Virus record (IMG/VR): IMGVR_UViG_3300032242_001916
Coordinates: 30,101-94,100 of that record
DNA: 64,000 nucleotides
Reading direction: 5' to 3' (one strand)
Origin: a virus
A model generated the notes under the pieces. It searched no databases. It worked only from the letters and a program-made list of their open reading frames with translations, and was not told the origin of the DNA. The position numbers and the translations under genes are program-made. Shown piece by piece: positions 28,787-35,695 of the stretch; the stretch's first letter is position 1; every line of letters starts with the position of its first letter.

Positions 28787-30910
28787 ATGGCTGCATTCGG
28801 TCGTCCCGGCGTATATGTACAGGAAACTGCTGTACCTCAAAATATCGCCATTCAAGACAGATCAGACGCTATTGCGGGCTTTATTGGTGCTCTTCCTAAG
28901 GGCCCAACAGTTCCAACGTTTGTAAATTCATGGTCTAACTTTGTCAAGCTTTATGGCAATCTAGACTACTCATTCCCAACAAGTGTTGCGGTTTACCAAT
29001 TTTTTACAAATGGTGGCCGCGATGCATACATTGACCGAGCTGTAAATTCAACCTCTGCTGCGGCAAGTATTCCTTTAACAAGCTCTGACGCTGCAACAGC
29101 TTTGACAGTTACTGCAAAGAGCGTAGGTTCTTGGGGTAATCAAATTTCGGTTGAAGCAATTGCTTATGGAAACCCAGTTAATAACCGTTTTTCCATTGTA
29201 GTATATGGTCAGCCATACACTACCGGTGCCGGCTTACGCTCAAACGTTTTGGAGCAATTCAATGATCTTAGTGCAACAAGCACCGATAGTCGCTATGCTG
29301 TAACATTAATTAATAACACCTCAGCATATATTACTGTAGCTGCTTCGGGTACAGGTCTTCCGGCTCCTGACGCTATTGTGCATAGTTTAGCTGGCGGTAC
29401 TGACGTAGCTATTGCAACTACCGACATTGTTTCTGCATTAACTGGGTTTGATAATATCAACACACCTTTGTTGCTTAACGCCCCTGATCTTGCTTACGTA
29501 GGCTCTACTTCAGTGCAGGGTAACTTTACACGTTCAAACGTAATTTCTGCAGTTGGTAGCATCCTTAAATACGCAGAATACCGCGGTGATGCATTTGCTA
29601 TAGTTGATACTCCAAATCTAGCTTCGGCATTTGATGCAATTAACTTTGCTACAGACGCTTCTTACTCAGCAGCTACTGCTGGAGCATCCACAATTAGTTC
29701 AAATATTTCTTCGGTTACCCCAGGTACTCAAGGATCTACCACAGCTGCTGGATACGTAACTTACACAACTACCTCGGCACATAGCTTTGTCCCGACTCAA
29801 CCAGTAACTATTACAAATGTAACTCGTGAACCTGCTCTAAATGCTAGTGCTACACTAGCCGTATTACCATCTACTCCTTCTACAGGACAGGTAAAATACG
29901 TTACTGCTGCTTCACATGGCTTTAAAACTGGTGATTTAGTAACAATCAGTGGTATTACAGGAACTGTTGGAACTACGTACAACTTTAGCACTGCTAAAGC
30001 AGTTACAGTTATTGATTCAACTTCGTTCTATGTAACCAGCGCTGTAACCGGCAGCCTAGCGTCAAACGCAGATACTTCAGCTGCTAAAGCAGTTAGCACT
30101 GGTTACAGTGGTACTTACACCATCTATTCAACTCCTACAAACTCACAGTTTGTAATTGCTAATGCTGAAACTGGTACCGCTACACTAACAGGTGCCTCTG
30201 CATCAGTTCCTACAAGCACCGGCTCTACTCCATGGACTGGTGTTTCTGCAACAGGTGCTAATGCAGCCATGTATTACCCGTGGTTGGTTGTTCCTGATAC
30301 ACGAGGTACTCCTGGCAATACAATTACTATACCTACTGGTGGAGCTATTATAGGTAAATTCCAGGCAACAGATGCTTCTCGTGGAGTATTTAAGACTCCG
30401 GCAGGTTACCAGACCAGTATTGCTGGTGCTGTTAGCCTTGGTGCATCACTATCTAATAGTGATCTTGATGCTCTTAATTCTTCAACAGTGCCTGTAAATG
30501 CGCTTCGTACATATCCAGGAGCAGGAATTGTTGTAATGGGTGGACGCACAATGTCTACTTTGGCAGCAAACCGCTACATTAACACACGACGTTCGTTAAT
30601 TTACTTAAAGAAGGAACTAAGACTGCGTACTTCATATGCAATCTTTGAGAACAATGATGCCTACTTATGGAATTCAATTACTAATGCATTGAACTCATTC
30701 TTAGGAAATTATTGGGCACAAGGAGGACTTCGTGGAAATTCTCCATTTAAAGCCTTCTACGTAAAGTGCGATTCAACTACTACTACAGATACTGACGTAG
30801 TAAACGGTCGTGTAAACGTACAAGTAGGTGTGGCTCTGGAATACCCTGCAGAGTTCATCGTCATCAACATTGGTCAGTTCACCGGCGGCACGTCTGTGAC
30901 TCAGGGTTAA
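28787..30910 (+). CDS. Contractile tail sheath protein
   Basis: 707 residues, longer than the usual 380-660. The N-terminus FGRPGVYVQETAVPQNIAIQ and DAIAGFIGALPKGPT, and the C-terminus RRSLIYLKKELRLRTSYAIF, EYPAEFIVINIGQFTGGTS, match myovirus sheaths. Two E1_FCCH-like modules are inserted at about residues 320-470 (HSFVPTQPVTITNV and HGFKTGDLVTISGI), probably displayed on the outer face. The sheath contracts to drive the tube through the envelope. A strong AAGGAG site precedes it. Confidence 0.92.
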   Translation: MAAFGRPGVYVQETAVPQNIAIQDRSDAIAGFIGALPKGPTVPTFVNSWSNFVKLYGNLDYSFPTSVAVYQFFTNGGRDAYIDRAVNSTSAAASIPLTSSDAATALTVTAKSVGSWGNQISVEAIAYGNPVNNRFSIVVYGQPYTTGAGLRSNVLEQFNDLSATSTDSRYAVTLINNTSAYITVAASGTGLPAPDAIVHSLAGGTDVAIATTDIVSALTGFDNINTPLLLNAPDLAYVGSTSVQGNFTRSNVISAVGSILKYAEYRGDAFAIVDTPNLASAFDAINFATDASYSAATAGASTISSNISSVTPGTQGSTTAAGYVTYTTTSAHSFVPTQPVTITNVTREPALNASATLAVLPSTPSTGQVKYVTAASHGFKTGDLVTISGITGTVGTTYNFSTAKAVTVIDSTSFYVTSAVTGSLASNADTSAAKAVSTGYSGTYTIYSTPTNSQFVIANAETGTATLTGASASVPTSTGSTPWTGVSATGANAAMYYPWLVVPDTRGTPGNTITIPTGGAIIGKFQATDASRGVFKTPAGYQTSIAGAVSLGASLSNSDLDALNSSTVPVNALRTYPGAGIVVMGGRTMSTLAANRYINTRRSLIYLKKELRLRTSYAIFENNDAYLWNSITNALNSFLGNYWAQGGLRGNSPFKAFYVKCDSTTTTDTDVVNGRVNVQVGVALEYPAEFIVINIGQFTGGTSVTQG

Positions 30911-30928: not shown

Positions 30929-31552
30929 ATGGCTGATTCAGTACTTATTAACCCTAAGAGCCAACTGATTACGGATCCAATTCGTAATTTTAGGTTCTTG
31001 GTTCAATTCTCGCCGTATAACACTACAGGCGCAGGAAAAGTTACGCATTCCCCACAACTTGGATTCATGAACGTTTCCGGTTTTGGTATGACAACAGAGC
31101 CAATCCAGTACCGTGAAGGTGGTTATAACACCACTGTTCACCAGTTGCCAGGTCAAACAAGCTTTGAACCTATCAACTTTTCAAGAGGTCAAACTCTTGG
31201 TGGTAGCCAAAATCGTGACTGGATGAGACAATTATTTGCAATTACACAGGGAACTTCAAACCAACCCGTTGGTGACGATTTCCGGTGCACAATTGACGTT
31301 TCAGTTCTAAGCCATCCAAACCCTGGCACTACAAGTAGCCAAACTGGTGGATCCGTAGCTAATGCTCTAGATCTTCACACTTCAATGAGATTCCGCATTT
31401 ACAATGCGTGGATTGCTAACCTTTCATATGGAGACCTGTCCGCATCTGCGGCTACAGGCCTTATGATTGAAGGTATGACCATTGTTCATGAAGGTTTTGA
31501 CGTAATCTTTGCTAATGATTTCTCAGCAACTGCGGGTCAATTTAGCTACTAA
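30929..31552 (+). CDS. Tail tube protein (T4 gp19-like)
   Basis: 207 residues. DPIRNFRFLVQFSPYN, LGFMNVSGFGMTTEPIQYRE and GQTSFEPINFSRGQTLGGSQ are the hallmark strands of the gp19/Hcp tube fold. The tube subunits stack in hexameric rings inside the sheath and carry the DNA. It follows the sheath directly with an AAGGAGAA site, as in most myoviruses. Confidence 0.92.
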   Translation: MADSVLINPKSQLITDPIRNFRFLVQFSPYNTTGAGKVTHSPQLGFMNVSGFGMTTEPIQYREGGYNTTVHQLPGQTSFEPINFSRGQTLGGSQNRDWMRQLFAITQGTSNQPVGDDFRCTIDVSVLSHPNPGTTSSQTGGSVANALDLHTSMRFRIYNAWIANLSYGDLSASAATGLMIEGMTIVHEGFDVIFANDFSATAGQFSY

Positions 31553-31574: not shown

Positions 31575-32414
31575 ATGACAAACGAAACGATTAGTGCAGC
31601 AGAAAACCCTGCACTTGCCACACAGCTAGTACAAGCCGCCCTATCAATGTCTATGGCTGATGAGGGGGATCAGGTTGTTGAGCAAAAAGTTGCTGTTACA
31701 ACTGCCCCCTCTTCGCCAGGACATGTAGAGCTACTGGGAGGAATCTACAACTCTTTTACTGGAGAAGTAATCCGCACAGCAGAAATCCGTGAGCTAACGG
31801 GTGTTGATGAAGAGGCCTTGTCACGTATTAATGATTATGGTCGTACTCTTCTTGCCATATTAAGCCGTGGTACTGTCAAGATTGGTGAAGAAAAAGCAAC
31901 TCAGGAAGTTCTTGATAAGTTGCTCGCGGGAGATCGAGAATACTTAATTTTCCAGATTAGACTTGCTACTTTTGGCCCTGATCTTGAGCTTTCTGGTCCA
32001 TGCCCAAGCTGCCAAGTTGTTCAGACTTTCAATATAAATCTTTCTGAAGATGTAAAAATTGATAGTTTAGATGATCCTAGTGAGCGCAGTATTACTGTTG
32101 ATTGCAAAGTAGGCAAAGTAACTGTAGAGCTTCCTACAGGAGCAGTACAGCGCAAGTTAATCACTTCAACAGATAAAACAGCTGCAGAACTAGATAGCCT
32201 TTTGTTAAAAGATTGTGTGATCTTTATTAATGACAACCCAATTTTAGATCCAAGTTTAATTAAGAATTTAAGTATGGCCGATCGTCGTAAAATTCTTAAA
32301 GAATTAGGCGAAAAGAACCCAGGCCCAGACTTAAGCAGTATCAAGAAATCTTGTTCTGCTTGCGGGTCGGAGGTCCCGACACCGCTTACATTAGCGGATC
32401 TATTTCGGGTTTGA
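31575..32414 (+). CDS. Tail assembly chaperone / T4 gp26-like protein (frame 0)
   Basis: 279 residues. Core LAGDREYLIFQIRLATFGPD and two CxxC pairs (CPSC near 140 and CSAC near 260) match the gp26-like group of tail/baseplate-assembly proteins encoded between tube and tape measure in myoviruses. Such genes usually have a second, frameshifted product. Here the reading frame ends at TGA 32412-32414, and a second frame continues to 32577. The protein would bind the tape measure and help tail assembly. Confidence 0.75.
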   Translation: MTNETISAAENPALATQLVQAALSMSMADEGDQVVEQKVAVTTAPSSPGHVELLGGIYNSFTGEVIRTAEIRELTGVDEEALSRINDYGRTLLAILSRGTVKIGEEKATQEVLDKLLAGDREYLIFQIRLATFGPDLELSGPCPSCQVVQTFNINLSEDVKIDSLDDPSERSITVDCKVGKVTVELPTGAVQRKLITSTDKTAAELDSLLLKDCVIFINDNPILDPSLIKNLSMADRRKILKELGEKNPGPDLSSIKKSCSACGSEVPTPLTLADLFRV

Positions 32415-32577
32415 TAATAAAGAAATTTATAAATACTTATTGGATTCATATGAACTTATAAGTAGGGCCTTTGTAGGCTGGTCTCTTAAAGAGATTAGAG
32501 AGCTTAGCCACAGGGAACGTGAAAACTGGTTGCAAAGGGCAACCTTAAAACTAGGACTAGGAGACATAAATGGCTGA
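32395..32577 (+). CDS. Frameshifted extension of the tail assembly chaperone
   Basis: The +1 frame relative to the upstream gene is open from 32395 to TGA 32575-32577, giving after the overlap FDNKEIYKYLLDSYELISRA, then GWSLKEIRELSHRERENWLQ and GLGDING. It has no ATG/GTG start or ribosome site, yet looks coding. Expression would need a +1 (or -2) shift at TTT-CGG-GTT-TGA (32403-32414): tRNA-Phe can slip from TTT to TTC at 32404-32406, or shifting can occur at the stop. Extended chaperones made this way are known in many tailed phages. Its end overlaps the tape-measure start. Confidence 0.6.
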   Translation, partial: RIYFGFDNKEIYKYLLDSYELISRAFVGWSLKEIRELSHRERENWLQRATLKLGLGDING

Positions 32578-35500
32578 TCCAACAGCAGGCCTTACTCCTC
32601 CTATGTCAGGATCTACAGGTTCGATTTCTCCCGTTAGTTCCGGAACTGCCGGTTCTAGCGGGAGTAAATCCCTGTATGTTAGAACCCTTGAACAGGGCTA
32701 CAACGTTATTGCAAAAACGTCTGCTATGTACGATCGTATTTTACGAACTACTAAAGAGATAAATAAAGAAAACGGTAAGCGCGGCGGAGTTGGTGGCGGC
32801 AGCACCAATATGTTTGCTAATTCAGGTGTTAATCAGCAAGCTGATGCAATGATGAATAAGCTCAACGAAATGATCCCAGCTTCTGGTATGAGTGCCGGAG
32901 GAAGAGCGGCTGTTGGGGCTGGTCAAACCGCTTTAGCCGCAGCTGGATTTATGTATTCTACACTTCCCAATGTACAAGATGCCGTATCTCAAAGAATTTC
33001 TGCACAAAGTGTTGCATCTTTGACAGGGCAAAGTGCACAAAGCGTAATAAATAGTAGTAATGCCCTTATAAAAGGTGGTATGACAGGTAACTACTCAGCG
33101 CAGTTGGCGGCACACTCTCTTGCAAGTGTAGGTGTTTATGGCACGGGTTACACTAATATTATGAGTCAAGTAGGCGGTCTTAGCGCTTTAACTGGTATGC
33201 AAAATGAGCAGGTAGCTGGAGCATACGGTGGCATTAACAGTATGAACTTTATGAGACTTGGAGTTCGTGCTCGTGATCGCCAGGGTAATATACGAGGCCC
33301 TAGTGATATCTCTAATGAACTTTACCAAAGATTAGTAGGTAAAAGAAAACTTACAATACAACAAGCAGGCAACACAATTCTTGCCCCACACTCTAGTGGT
33401 CAAATGGCAATTCAAGCAGCTGCGGGTGGAGATCAAGCATTAGCTGCAAGCTTGACAGAACAACTGTATTTTCAGGCACGCAATGGTGGAAAAAAGTTAC
33501 CACTAGGGGACCCTGAAAAAATTATGGGCAAAAAAGTTCTTAATCTTTCTGCAGACGACCCATTGCGTAAAATGTTTACTTACAATAAGCGTCAGTCTGA
33601 ATACTTACAGGCTGTGGGTGGGTCGGAAGTAGGCGGCTACGGTACTGCTTTAGATGCCAGCGGTAAGGTTGCTGAAGGAATGGCCGGACTAGCTAAAGTA
33701 ATGCCCGACGTTGTTGGTGGTATGGCTAGACTTGCAGGTCTTTTACAAACTCTTCCTGGAGCCGGTAATACAGGACTAGGATTAGCAAGTTTAGCTAGCG
33801 GAGTGGGCGGCTCTGGAACTAATATGCTTCAAATGGGTATGGAAGCCCGTGCAATAACCATGCTTGGGCGAGGAGGTGGCGGTACTCCTGGGGCAGTTGG
33901 CGGAAGAGGTATGGCAGGGTCTACTGGTGCACGCGTTCTTGGTCGGGGTCTTGGAGGACTAGCAGCTATACAAGCTACAAATATGGCAGTCCCATTTTTA
34001 CGTCAGCAAGGGCAAAAACACCTTCATATTAAGCCAGGTAGTGCTGTAGATAAAACGGGTACAATTCTTGGTACCGCAGGTGGATATGCTGCTGGTGGGG
34101 CAATGATTGGATCTGTAATACCCGGAATTGGAACAGCAGCTGGAGCAGTAGTTGGAGGTCTAGCTGGATTAGCCGTTGGTTTTATGAATTCTAATAACTC
34201 ACCTGTTGGTGGAGATGGAATTACAGGCCCGCTTAGTTGGGCGCAAACGTTATTAAAACAGATGTCTATTACCCCTAAAAATTCTGGAATTGACAATGCT
34301 ATAGCTAACTGGGAAGCACATGAAGGCGGCCATTGGGGAAATTCTGCAAGATATAACCCACTAAATACTTCTCAAAGAATGCTTCCATCCGACACAAACA
34401 TGAACTCAGATGGAGTTAAAGTGTACTCCAGTTGGTCTGAGGGACTTCAAGCCACTGTTAAAACTCTTCATTCTAAAGGGCATCATTATGAAAGAATTAT
34501 TGATGCAATGAGTAGTGGTAAACCTGATGACCTTTACCAAGCGGTTGTAGATTCAAAGTGGGGAACTACATCTCTTATGGGCCACGTAAAAAGTAAGGGG
34601 TCTCACAAAAAAACTGGAAAACCTCACGTAAATAATGGCGTGTACAACCCTCCAGCTAATGGTCCAAAAACCGCACACTTTGGTCAAAAACCACGGGTAA
34701 AAGGAAAGTATTGGACACAGTACGGGTATCATACTGGTCAAGATTACGGAGTTCCAGTAGGAACTTCTGTTAAAGCTTATAAAGCAGGAAAAGTTATACA
34801 TGCAGGCGATGGTGGCAGTAGAGCAGACCTTGGATCAGCTTGGGGTAAGGCAATCCTTGTAGATCATGGTACTCATAGAAGCCTTTATGCCCACCTGTCT
34901 CATGTTGGAGTAAGAGCAGGAGACAAAGTAAGGCCTGGTCAGCAAATTGCTTTGTCAGGTAATACTGGGTCTGCTTCGCAAGGTCCACACTTACACTTTG
35001 AAATTAGAAAAGGTGGAAAGCCTGTAGACCCAATTCCTTATCTTGGAGGCGGTAGTAGTGGTAGTTTAACTCCTCCATCTTCAACTCCAAATCCAACTCC
35101 AGGATCCTCTCCAGCCCCATCAACAGGGACTACTTCTACAAACAACTTTACTACTTGGGGAACAGGCGTTGCCCCAGGAACTCATGGAGGAACTCATGGA
35201 GGAACTCATGGAGGAACTCACAAAGCATCTGTACCTCCGTCTTCAGCTGGGCCTGCAGCTGGAGTTGTAAACACACCTAGTAGTTCAGTAGTAGTTACTA
35301 ATACAAAGCCTAGAATGCTTACTACTAGCGCAGGTCTGACTAATGCGGCTGCAGCAGCAACTCAGCTTTCTGTAAGTAATCTTGGGGTTTCATCTGGGTA
35401 TGGATCTGTAAATACTGCTTTAGGTGGAAGCTCTATTTTTAGCGCTAACTACGAGCAAGCGGATTATAGTGGATTTGGTGGAGATGCTAATCCACCTAGT

Positions 35501-35695
35501 GTTGGAAGTTTTGATCCAGTAGGAACCTCTTTACGGACAAGAAGTAGTGGTGGCAGTCATGGGGATCACGGCATAACAATTAACATGAATATTAGCATTG
35601 CTAATGCAGATACAGCTAATGCGGTTAATATGGCTAAAGAAATTAAGACAATTCTTGAACGTGAATTAAGAGATAGCAAGATTAGGAATTATTAA
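32570..35695 (+). CDS. Tape measure protein with lysozyme-like and M23 domains
   Basis: 1041 residues. The N-terminal 480 residues are Ala/Gly/Ser-rich helical segments. Residues about 490-545 are hydrophobic Gly/Ala (GGAMIGSVIPGIGTAAGAVV), as in tape measures. About 570-665 is a lysozyme-like unit (NWEAHEGGHWGNSARYNPLN). About 700-825 is an M23 domain (YHTGQDYGVPVG, YAHLSHV, GPHLHFEIRK). Then come a THGG repeat and a C-terminal ITINMNISIANA segment. It fixes tail length and, on injection, cuts peptidoglycan. The ATG 32570 overlaps the chaperone extension's end. Confidence 0.88.
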   Translation: MADPTAGLTPPMSGSTGSISPVSSGTAGSSGSKSLYVRTLEQGYNVIAKTSAMYDRILRTTKEINKENGKRGGVGGGSTNMFANSGVNQQADAMMNKLNEMIPASGMSAGGRAAVGAGQTALAAAGFMYSTLPNVQDAVSQRISAQSVASLTGQSAQSVINSSNALIKGGMTGNYSAQLAAHSLASVGVYGTGYTNIMSQVGGLSALTGMQNEQVAGAYGGINSMNFMRLGVRARDRQGNIRGPSDISNELYQRLVGKRKLTIQQAGNTILAPHSSGQMAIQAAAGGDQALAASLTEQLYFQARNGGKKLPLGDPEKIMGKKVLNLSADDPLRKMFTYNKRQSEYLQAVGGSEVGGYGTALDASGKVAEGMAGLAKVMPDVVGGMARLAGLLQTLPGAGNTGLGLASLASGVGGSGTNMLQMGMEARAITMLGRGGGGTPGAVGGRGMAGSTGARVLGRGLGGLAAIQATNMAVPFLRQQGQKHLHIKPGSAVDKTGTILGTAGGYAAGGAMIGSVIPGIGTAAGAVVGGLAGLAVGFMNSNNSPVGGDGITGPLSWAQTLLKQMSITPKNSGIDNAIANWEAHEGGHWGNSARYNPLNTSQRMLPSDTNMNSDGVKVYSSWSEGLQATVKTLHSKGHHYERIIDAMSSGKPDDLYQAVVDSKWGTTSLMGHVKSKGSHKKTGKPHVNNGVYNPPANGPKTAHFGQKPRVKGKYWTQYGYHTGQDYGVPVGTSVKAYKAGKVIHAGDGGSRADLGSAWGKAILVDHGTHRSLYAHLSHVGVRAGDKVRPGQQIALSGNTGSASQGPHLHFEIRKGGKPVDPIPYLGGGSSGSLTPPSSTPNPTPGSSPAPSTGTTSTNNFTTWGTGVAPGTHGGTHGGTHGGTHKASVPPSSAGPAAGVVNTPSSSVVVTNTKPRMLTTSAGLTNAAAAATQLSVSNLGVSSGYGSVNTALGGSSIFSANYEQADYSGFGGDANPPSVGSFDPVGTSLRTRSSGGSHGDHGITINMNISIANADTANAVNMAKEIKTILERELRDSKIRNY
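35177..35220 (+). repeat. Tandem 12-bp repeat in tape measure gene
   Basis: The unit GGAACTCATGGA is present three times exactly plus a partial fourth copy (35177-35220), coding for THGG repeats. It is a likely slippage-prone site, so copy number may vary between strains. Confidence 0.85.

Follow-up and report, generated by a model that had tools for sequence, protein, structure and literature searches.

A predicted programmed +1 frameshift at UUU_C in a broad family of phage tail assembly chaperone genes related to T4 gp26 and gp51

Frameshifting in tail chaperone genes is among the most conserved recoding events of phages and nearly always proceeds in the −1 direction, with T4 as the stated exception, and a −2 frameshift is known in the tail genes of Mu. 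In the lambda G/GT arrangement the gene lies between those of the tail tube and the tape measure, ribosomes shift −1 on a conserved heptamer, and a downstream frame without its own start extends the short form into a low-abundance, C-terminally extended form. In chaperones of this type both products bind the tape measure and the tube, neither is present in the virion, and a fixed ratio of the two is required. Shifts of +1 are known from other settings. Influenza PA-X led to the proposal that UUU_C defines a class of +1 sites (PMC3498833), and Shine-Dalgarno (SD) sequences have precedent as stimulators of frameshifting, the known +1 stimulator in RF2 (prfB) lying at 3 nt (PMC5009743). In phage structural and tail genes, +1 shifts are described for Listeria PSA, which uses CCC in its capsid and tail-shaft genes, and for Halorubrum virus HSTV-2, noted only as very likely +1 (PMC5009743). 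In T4, a 5′ stem-loop of gene 60 was proposed to pull the mRNA forward (PMC5009743), and at the split ribosome binding site of gene 25 a hairpin between SD and start cuts a 27-nt spacing to 11 (PMC3014915). Beside what is already known, namely phage tail chaperone frameshifting, +1 slippage at UUU_C and the +1 shifts of HSTV-2 and PSA, a broad phage family combining a predicted +1 shift at UUU_C, an SD-hairpin architecture and a link to gp26/gp51 appears to be new; searches of a library of non-subscription papers turned up no description of UUU_C in the tail genes of phages.

The DNA analysed here (the window) is a stretch of 64,000 nt from a virus record of 94.1 kb, and its tail tube, chaperone and tape-measure genes and the elements of the frameshift site lie on the + strand. 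An ORF at 31575..32414 encodes the 279-aa short form of a protein of the T4 gp26/gp51 hub-assembly chaperone family (PF12322, E=1.1e-10, 42.1 bits over a cut-off of 24.5; phrog_150, E=5e-10). As in lambda, it sits between the tail tube gene, which lies directly upstream (gp19-like, 30929..31552; PF06841, E=7.5e-20), and the gene of a tape-measure protein with an M23 peptidase domain (32570..35695; PF01551, E=3.2e-26; phrog_10030, E=3.3e-24). The 0 frame ends GCG GAT CTA TTT CGG GTT TGA, with the TGA at 32412..32414, two codons past the putative slip codon TTT (32403-32405), which closes the motif LADLF; the slip site TTT_C occupies 32403..32406 and its UUC register 32404-32406. In the +1 frame a TAG at 32392-32394 is followed by an open stretch that begins at 32395 and runs to a stop at 32575-32577, so that it overlaps the tape-measure ATG at 32570. 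Entered at the slip site, it would add an extension of 56 aa plus stop (32407..32577; GFDNKEIYKYLLDSYELISRAFVGWSLKEIRELSHRERENWLQRATLKLGLGDING) and yield a 333-aa long form whose junction reads ...LADLF-GFDNKE.... A sequence-only reading of this DNA had already placed the end of the chaperone frame, the opening of the +1 frame and its run to the tape-measure start at these positions, and had described the second frame as devoid of a start or ribosome site; the only candidate ahead of its GW..RER core is a TTG at 32440, which lacks a Shine-Dalgarno sequence. Two further features of the neighbourhood are an E1_FCCH-like match (residues 366-417) in the middle region of the tail sheath protein (28787-30910, 707 aa) and a 12-bp tandem repeat (AGGAACTCATGG) in 3.8 perfect copies at 35176-35220, inside the tape-measure gene.

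The layout of a 0-frame stop followed by a +1 extension is shared by 110 distinct relatives, which form 36 clusters at 70% protein identity and comprise freshwater phages, Streptomyces phages and prophages. They were gathered from viral contigs by two profile searches, with 80 loci apiece, and from genome contigs and phage records; the first set of relatives held 93 loci, 68 of them distinct. The slip codon is TTT in all 93 loci of the first set and in 110/110 distinct relatives, with C as the next base in 108 of them and T in the other 2; no p-value is attached to this conservation because related sequences are not independent. The alignment to relatives that the sequence-only reading had proposed therefore finds the site conserved, and the second frame, whose loss among relatives was to count against that reading, is retained. 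The next residue is Arg in 72 relatives, Gln in 23, Leu in 11 and Pro in 2, with a stop in the remaining 2, and the corresponding A-site codons (72 CGN, 23 CAR, 11 CTY, 2 CCN) display a preference for CGN. Arg after TTT is always encoded by CGN, against 1014 CGN and 362 AGR codons (26% of Arg) elsewhere in the genes; similarly, Leu after TTT is always CTY, against 2387 CTN and 750 TTR elsewhere. Of the 320 other in-frame TTT codons in these genes only 15 have C as the next base, and in the 25 loci above 62% GC the ratio of TTT to TTC is 5:178 in the rest of the gene, the slip site being TTT in 25/25. Judged from this codon usage, amino-acid constraint cannot explain the TTT_C patterns, and the sequence-only reading's suggestion of a TTT-C site, at which tRNA-Phe would re-pair with TTC, gains strong support. 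Across the larger ORFs of the window, TTT is followed by CGN at only 3 of 407 TTT codons, the slip site included, as if the combination were avoided.

In the aligned extensions W, L and RER are invariant, and 52-63% of the differences between relatives are third-position changes when read in the +1 frame, which indicates that the extension is under coding constraint in that frame. The PF20546 (DUF6760) profile scored 13.6 bits on the window extension, below its cut-off. The fused protein was modelled with AlphaFold2 at a mean pLDDT of 84.2; its C-terminal segment is predicted, with low to moderate confidence (pLDDT about 50-75), to be helical at residues 282-299, 304-308 and 312-325. The alignment given to the model consisted of the fused window protein and unmodified 0-frame relatives, so that almost no alignment depth was available for folding the extension.

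The place of the shift is confined from both sides. Upstream, a +1-frame stop ends 8 or 14 nt 5′ of the TTT in most first-set relatives, and in two relatives (L063 and L090) the 0-frame stop immediately follows the TTT; the shift must therefore occur at the TTT. Downstream, the 0-frame stop lies 0-3 codons past the TTT and varies among relatives, TGA being commonest (32/68 in the first set). UUU, moving onto UUC (or UUU), is the sole codon of this interval able to re-pair one base forward. In every member tabulated as +1 the −1 frame is shut within 134 nt of the stop, and no −1 slippery heptamer was found. A P-site UUU_C is continued in the +1 frame, as in the UUU_C class, and a conserved second frame is reachable only by frameshifting, as in G/GT. 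Two products would very probably be made from one gene by programmed +1 frameshifting, with tRNA-Phe slipping from UUU to UUC. The site, the frame, the direction (by exclusion) and the deep conservation are established here at the level of sequence comparison.

The second frame might alternatively be a separate gene, translated from its own start codon or by re-initiation. This is how the counterpart is organized in two actinomycete contractile-injection-like loci (L096 and L097, genomes G002 and G003), where a DUF6760 gene placed immediately after the PF12322-like ORF begins with an ATG of its own; in L097 (1400-1660) this ATG overlaps the stop as ATGA. The annotators of the Streptomyces phages BRock, LuckySocke and GiJojo likewise called the extension a separate gene, and the window has its TTG at 32440. 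However, one relative (L038) has zero ATG, GTG or TTG codons in the +1 frame, others (L001, L056, L070, L076 and L080) have no start codon ahead of the conserved GW core, start positions in the extension vary among relatives, and a separate gene would leave unexplained why TTT is invariant and always followed by C or T. The relatives thus exclude a separate start as a general explanation, and it is considered very unlikely.

A −2 shift at the same codon arrives in the same frame as +1 and would insert one extra Phe (LADLFFGFDNK). Such a shift would require re-pairing on UNU (UGU, UAU, UCU), with a mismatch in the middle position, and would again leave the invariant C (or T) without explanation; in influenza no −2 peptide was observed (PMC3498833). 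A −2 event is still less probable, and of the two directions that the sequence-only reading had allowed, +1 or −2, the first is the one favoured by the invariant TTT_C. Tryptic junction peptides predicted for the window would distinguish the products: SCSACGSEVPTPLTLADLFGFDNK for +1, SCSACGSEVPTPLTLADLFFGFDNK for −2 and SCSACGSEVPTPLTLADLFR for the 0 frame.

An RF2-like +1 shift at the stop codon itself, on GTT_TGA, had also been entertained in that reading, and NTT_TGA does occur in the window and in two relatives (L001 and L002), TGA being the commonest stop. The codon before the stop nevertheless varies freely, TAA and TAG stops are also used, no SD lies at 3 nt, and the stop that adjoins TTT in L063 and L090 speaks against a shift at GTT_TGA, so that this option is excluded for the site and an RF2-like mechanism is extremely improbable; the RF2 arrangement of a shift codon adjacent to the stop with an SD 3 nt upstream was not found. 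An error of sequencing or assembly, or decay of the gene, which a one-base change of frame resembles and no tool result favours, is already refuted by the identical site in 110 distinct relatives, among them isolated and fully sequenced phages, and by the coding constraint in the +1 frame.

Upstream of the slip codon lie an internal SD-like GGAGGT (32369..32374), 28 nt 5′ of the slip codon (−34 to −29), and, between the two, a predicted hairpin CCGCT-TACATT-AGCGG (32382..32397); neither had figured in the sequence-only reading. The Glu codon of the SD-like element is GAG in 104/110 relatives against 47% elsewhere (68/71 against 35% among low-GC loci), and the codon before it has G in its third position in 88/110, the background being 20%, with a variable residue (Q, K, S, A, G, T or L). 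The duplex of the element with the anti-SD is within the best 3% in the genes, with an energy of −10.2 kcal/mol in the window. A stem of at least 4 pairs occurs between the element and UUU in 108/110 relatives, and its 3′ arm begins at −9 to −12 in 95/110, though sequence and register differ (CCGCT/AGCGG, CTGCCA/TGGCAG, CCCAC/GTGGG and GGTCCCCC/GGGGGACC, for example). The hairpin is more stable than synonymous recodings, with a z of about −3.0 in the window and a mean z of −2.6 in the 74 loci of GC ≤0.5 and −1.6 in the 36 loci of GC >0.5; it is also more stable than other windows of the same genes, with a mean z of −2.2. The hairpin is not clear in about a third of the 36 clusters, several GC-rich ones included. 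Fixed-column covariation in the mixed alignment is weak (65% paired, equalled by 38 of 500 shuffles) because the hairpin register changes between clades, and the case for the hairpin rests on the synonymous-recoding and within-gene controls. Together these counts and controls indicate selection on synonymous sites for both the SD-like element and the hairpin, and the two may stimulate slippage. An Rfam search found only a tRNA. In the window phage, the GGAGGT is also contained in a second predicted small hairpin (GUCGG/CCGAC, 32366-32380).

In the mechanism proposed for the +1 frameshift, most ribosomes would terminate at 32412-32414 and release the short chaperone, and a fraction with UUU in the P site and CGG in the A site would slip by +1, tRNA-Phe re-pairing with UUC, and read on to 32575-32577 to give the long form with its C-terminal helical domain. 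The internal GGAGGU may stimulate slippage by pairing with 16S rRNA; its distance of 28 nt from the P site, against 3 nt in RF2, is a point against this. The 3′ arm of the hairpin, 9-12 nt 5′ of UUU, would be near the expected exit of the mRNA from the ribosome, and closing of the hairpin could favour forward movement of the mRNA; alternatively, the hairpin may be looped out, bringing the SD helix nearer to the P site and again favouring forward movement. The short and long forms would then act jointly as chaperones of tape measure and hub, in the way of gpG/gpGT in lambda and perhaps of gp26/gp51 in T4.

Each known system shares part of this architecture. The likeness to lambda G/GT extends to gene position, the conserved slip site, the predicted pair of short and low-abundance long forms and the absence of an own start in the downstream frame, in contrast to the +1 direction at UUU_C, the PF12322 family and the GGAGGU and hairpin 5′ of the site. 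The UUU_C class of influenza A PA-X and related eukaryotic RNA viruses has the same P-site UUU_C and CGN in the A site (72/110 here); the present site differs in being read by a bacterial ribosome in a dsDNA phage, with no shared ancestry implied, in having mostly Leu rather than the UCC codon in the E site, and in the additional upstream SD and hairpin. RF2 shares +1 P-site slippage and an upstream Shine-Dalgarno sequence, but slips at CUU_UGA, requires the A-site stop and has its SD at 3 nt, compared with UUU_C, 28 nt and an intervening hairpin here. T4 gene 25 has an SD about 27 nt upstream with a hairpin in between (PMC3014915), and this SD-hairpin is located in the 3′ end of gene 26, itself a PF12322 homologue, and so at a position matching that of the element described here; there the SD serves initiation, whereas the window has no start codon at that position.

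The name chaperone, already used in the sequence-only reading, is supported by membership of the gp26/gp51 family. T4 gp26 and gp51 both match PF12322 (E 8.8e-64 and 3.9e-52) and are both listed as hub-assembly chaperones (PMC3004832). On the 282 positions of the phrog_150 profile gp26 reaches 235 and gp51 reaches 280, and T4 thus appears to carry a short and a long family member as two separate genes, with no frameshift. These paralogues (L098, 3803-5229) may be what T4 has in place of the frameshift pair. An arrangement with gene 51 following gene 26 co-directionally was rejected, the record showing the two genes to be divergent. When profiles were compared locally, the extension and gp51 gave no significant match; a global alignment brings the extension into register with the C-terminus of gp51 (probability 83.6%, pairwise E 9.4e-7), and HMM scores were above all 200 shuffles for 3 of 10 gp51 C-termini, together pointing to a weak similarity. 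The GXN1 slice in the HMM comparison was out of frame and is left out of account. The best viral matches in a fold search are T4-like baseplate hub assembly proteins, and the PDB fold search gave nothing significant, with the HK97 tail assembly chaperone 2ob9 second (probability 0.75, E 0.99). From homology and gene position, the most likely role is that of two chaperones working as a pair on the tape measure and hub, and this role is regarded as probable.

Elsewhere in the family the arrangement of the two frames varies. In Xanthomonas phage XacN1 (L197, 2180-2320) the corresponding place carries the U-run GCT TTT TTT ATT with a continuation in the −1 frame, likely a −1 frameshift. A 595-kb phage (L195) has an overlapping ATG, and a 484-kb megaphage (L196) again has TTT_C, as TTT_CTA, with +1 continuation. 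Among SP-15-type phages TTT_C is found in three of four (L008, L113 and L114), the fourth (L009) having TTT_TTT_A, with continuation in +1. A wider and tentative reading, judged somewhat short of an even chance, is that the SD and hairpin form a new bacterial +1 stimulator, the hairpin either closing as the mRNA exits and pulling it forward or itself looping out and so bringing the SD helix closer to the P site, and that PF12322 is the T4-type tail assembly chaperone, whose short and long forms would be obtained by varied routes: +1 frameshifting here, −1 in XacN1-like phages, re-initiation in the injection systems and certain megaphages, and a duplicated gene (gp26/gp51) in T4. Were this so, it would account for T4 seeming to have no conserved tail frameshift. 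The link would bring T4 gp26/gp51 into the tail-chaperone scheme, and the 110 natural variants that define the UUU_C signal offer a testable bacterial model for UUU_C slippage and its upstream stimulators. Current annotation of Streptomyces phages (L004, L005, L006 and L007) misses or splits the predicted frameshift product: public records call the extension a separate gene in BRock, LuckySocke and GiJojo and omit it in pSt2308.
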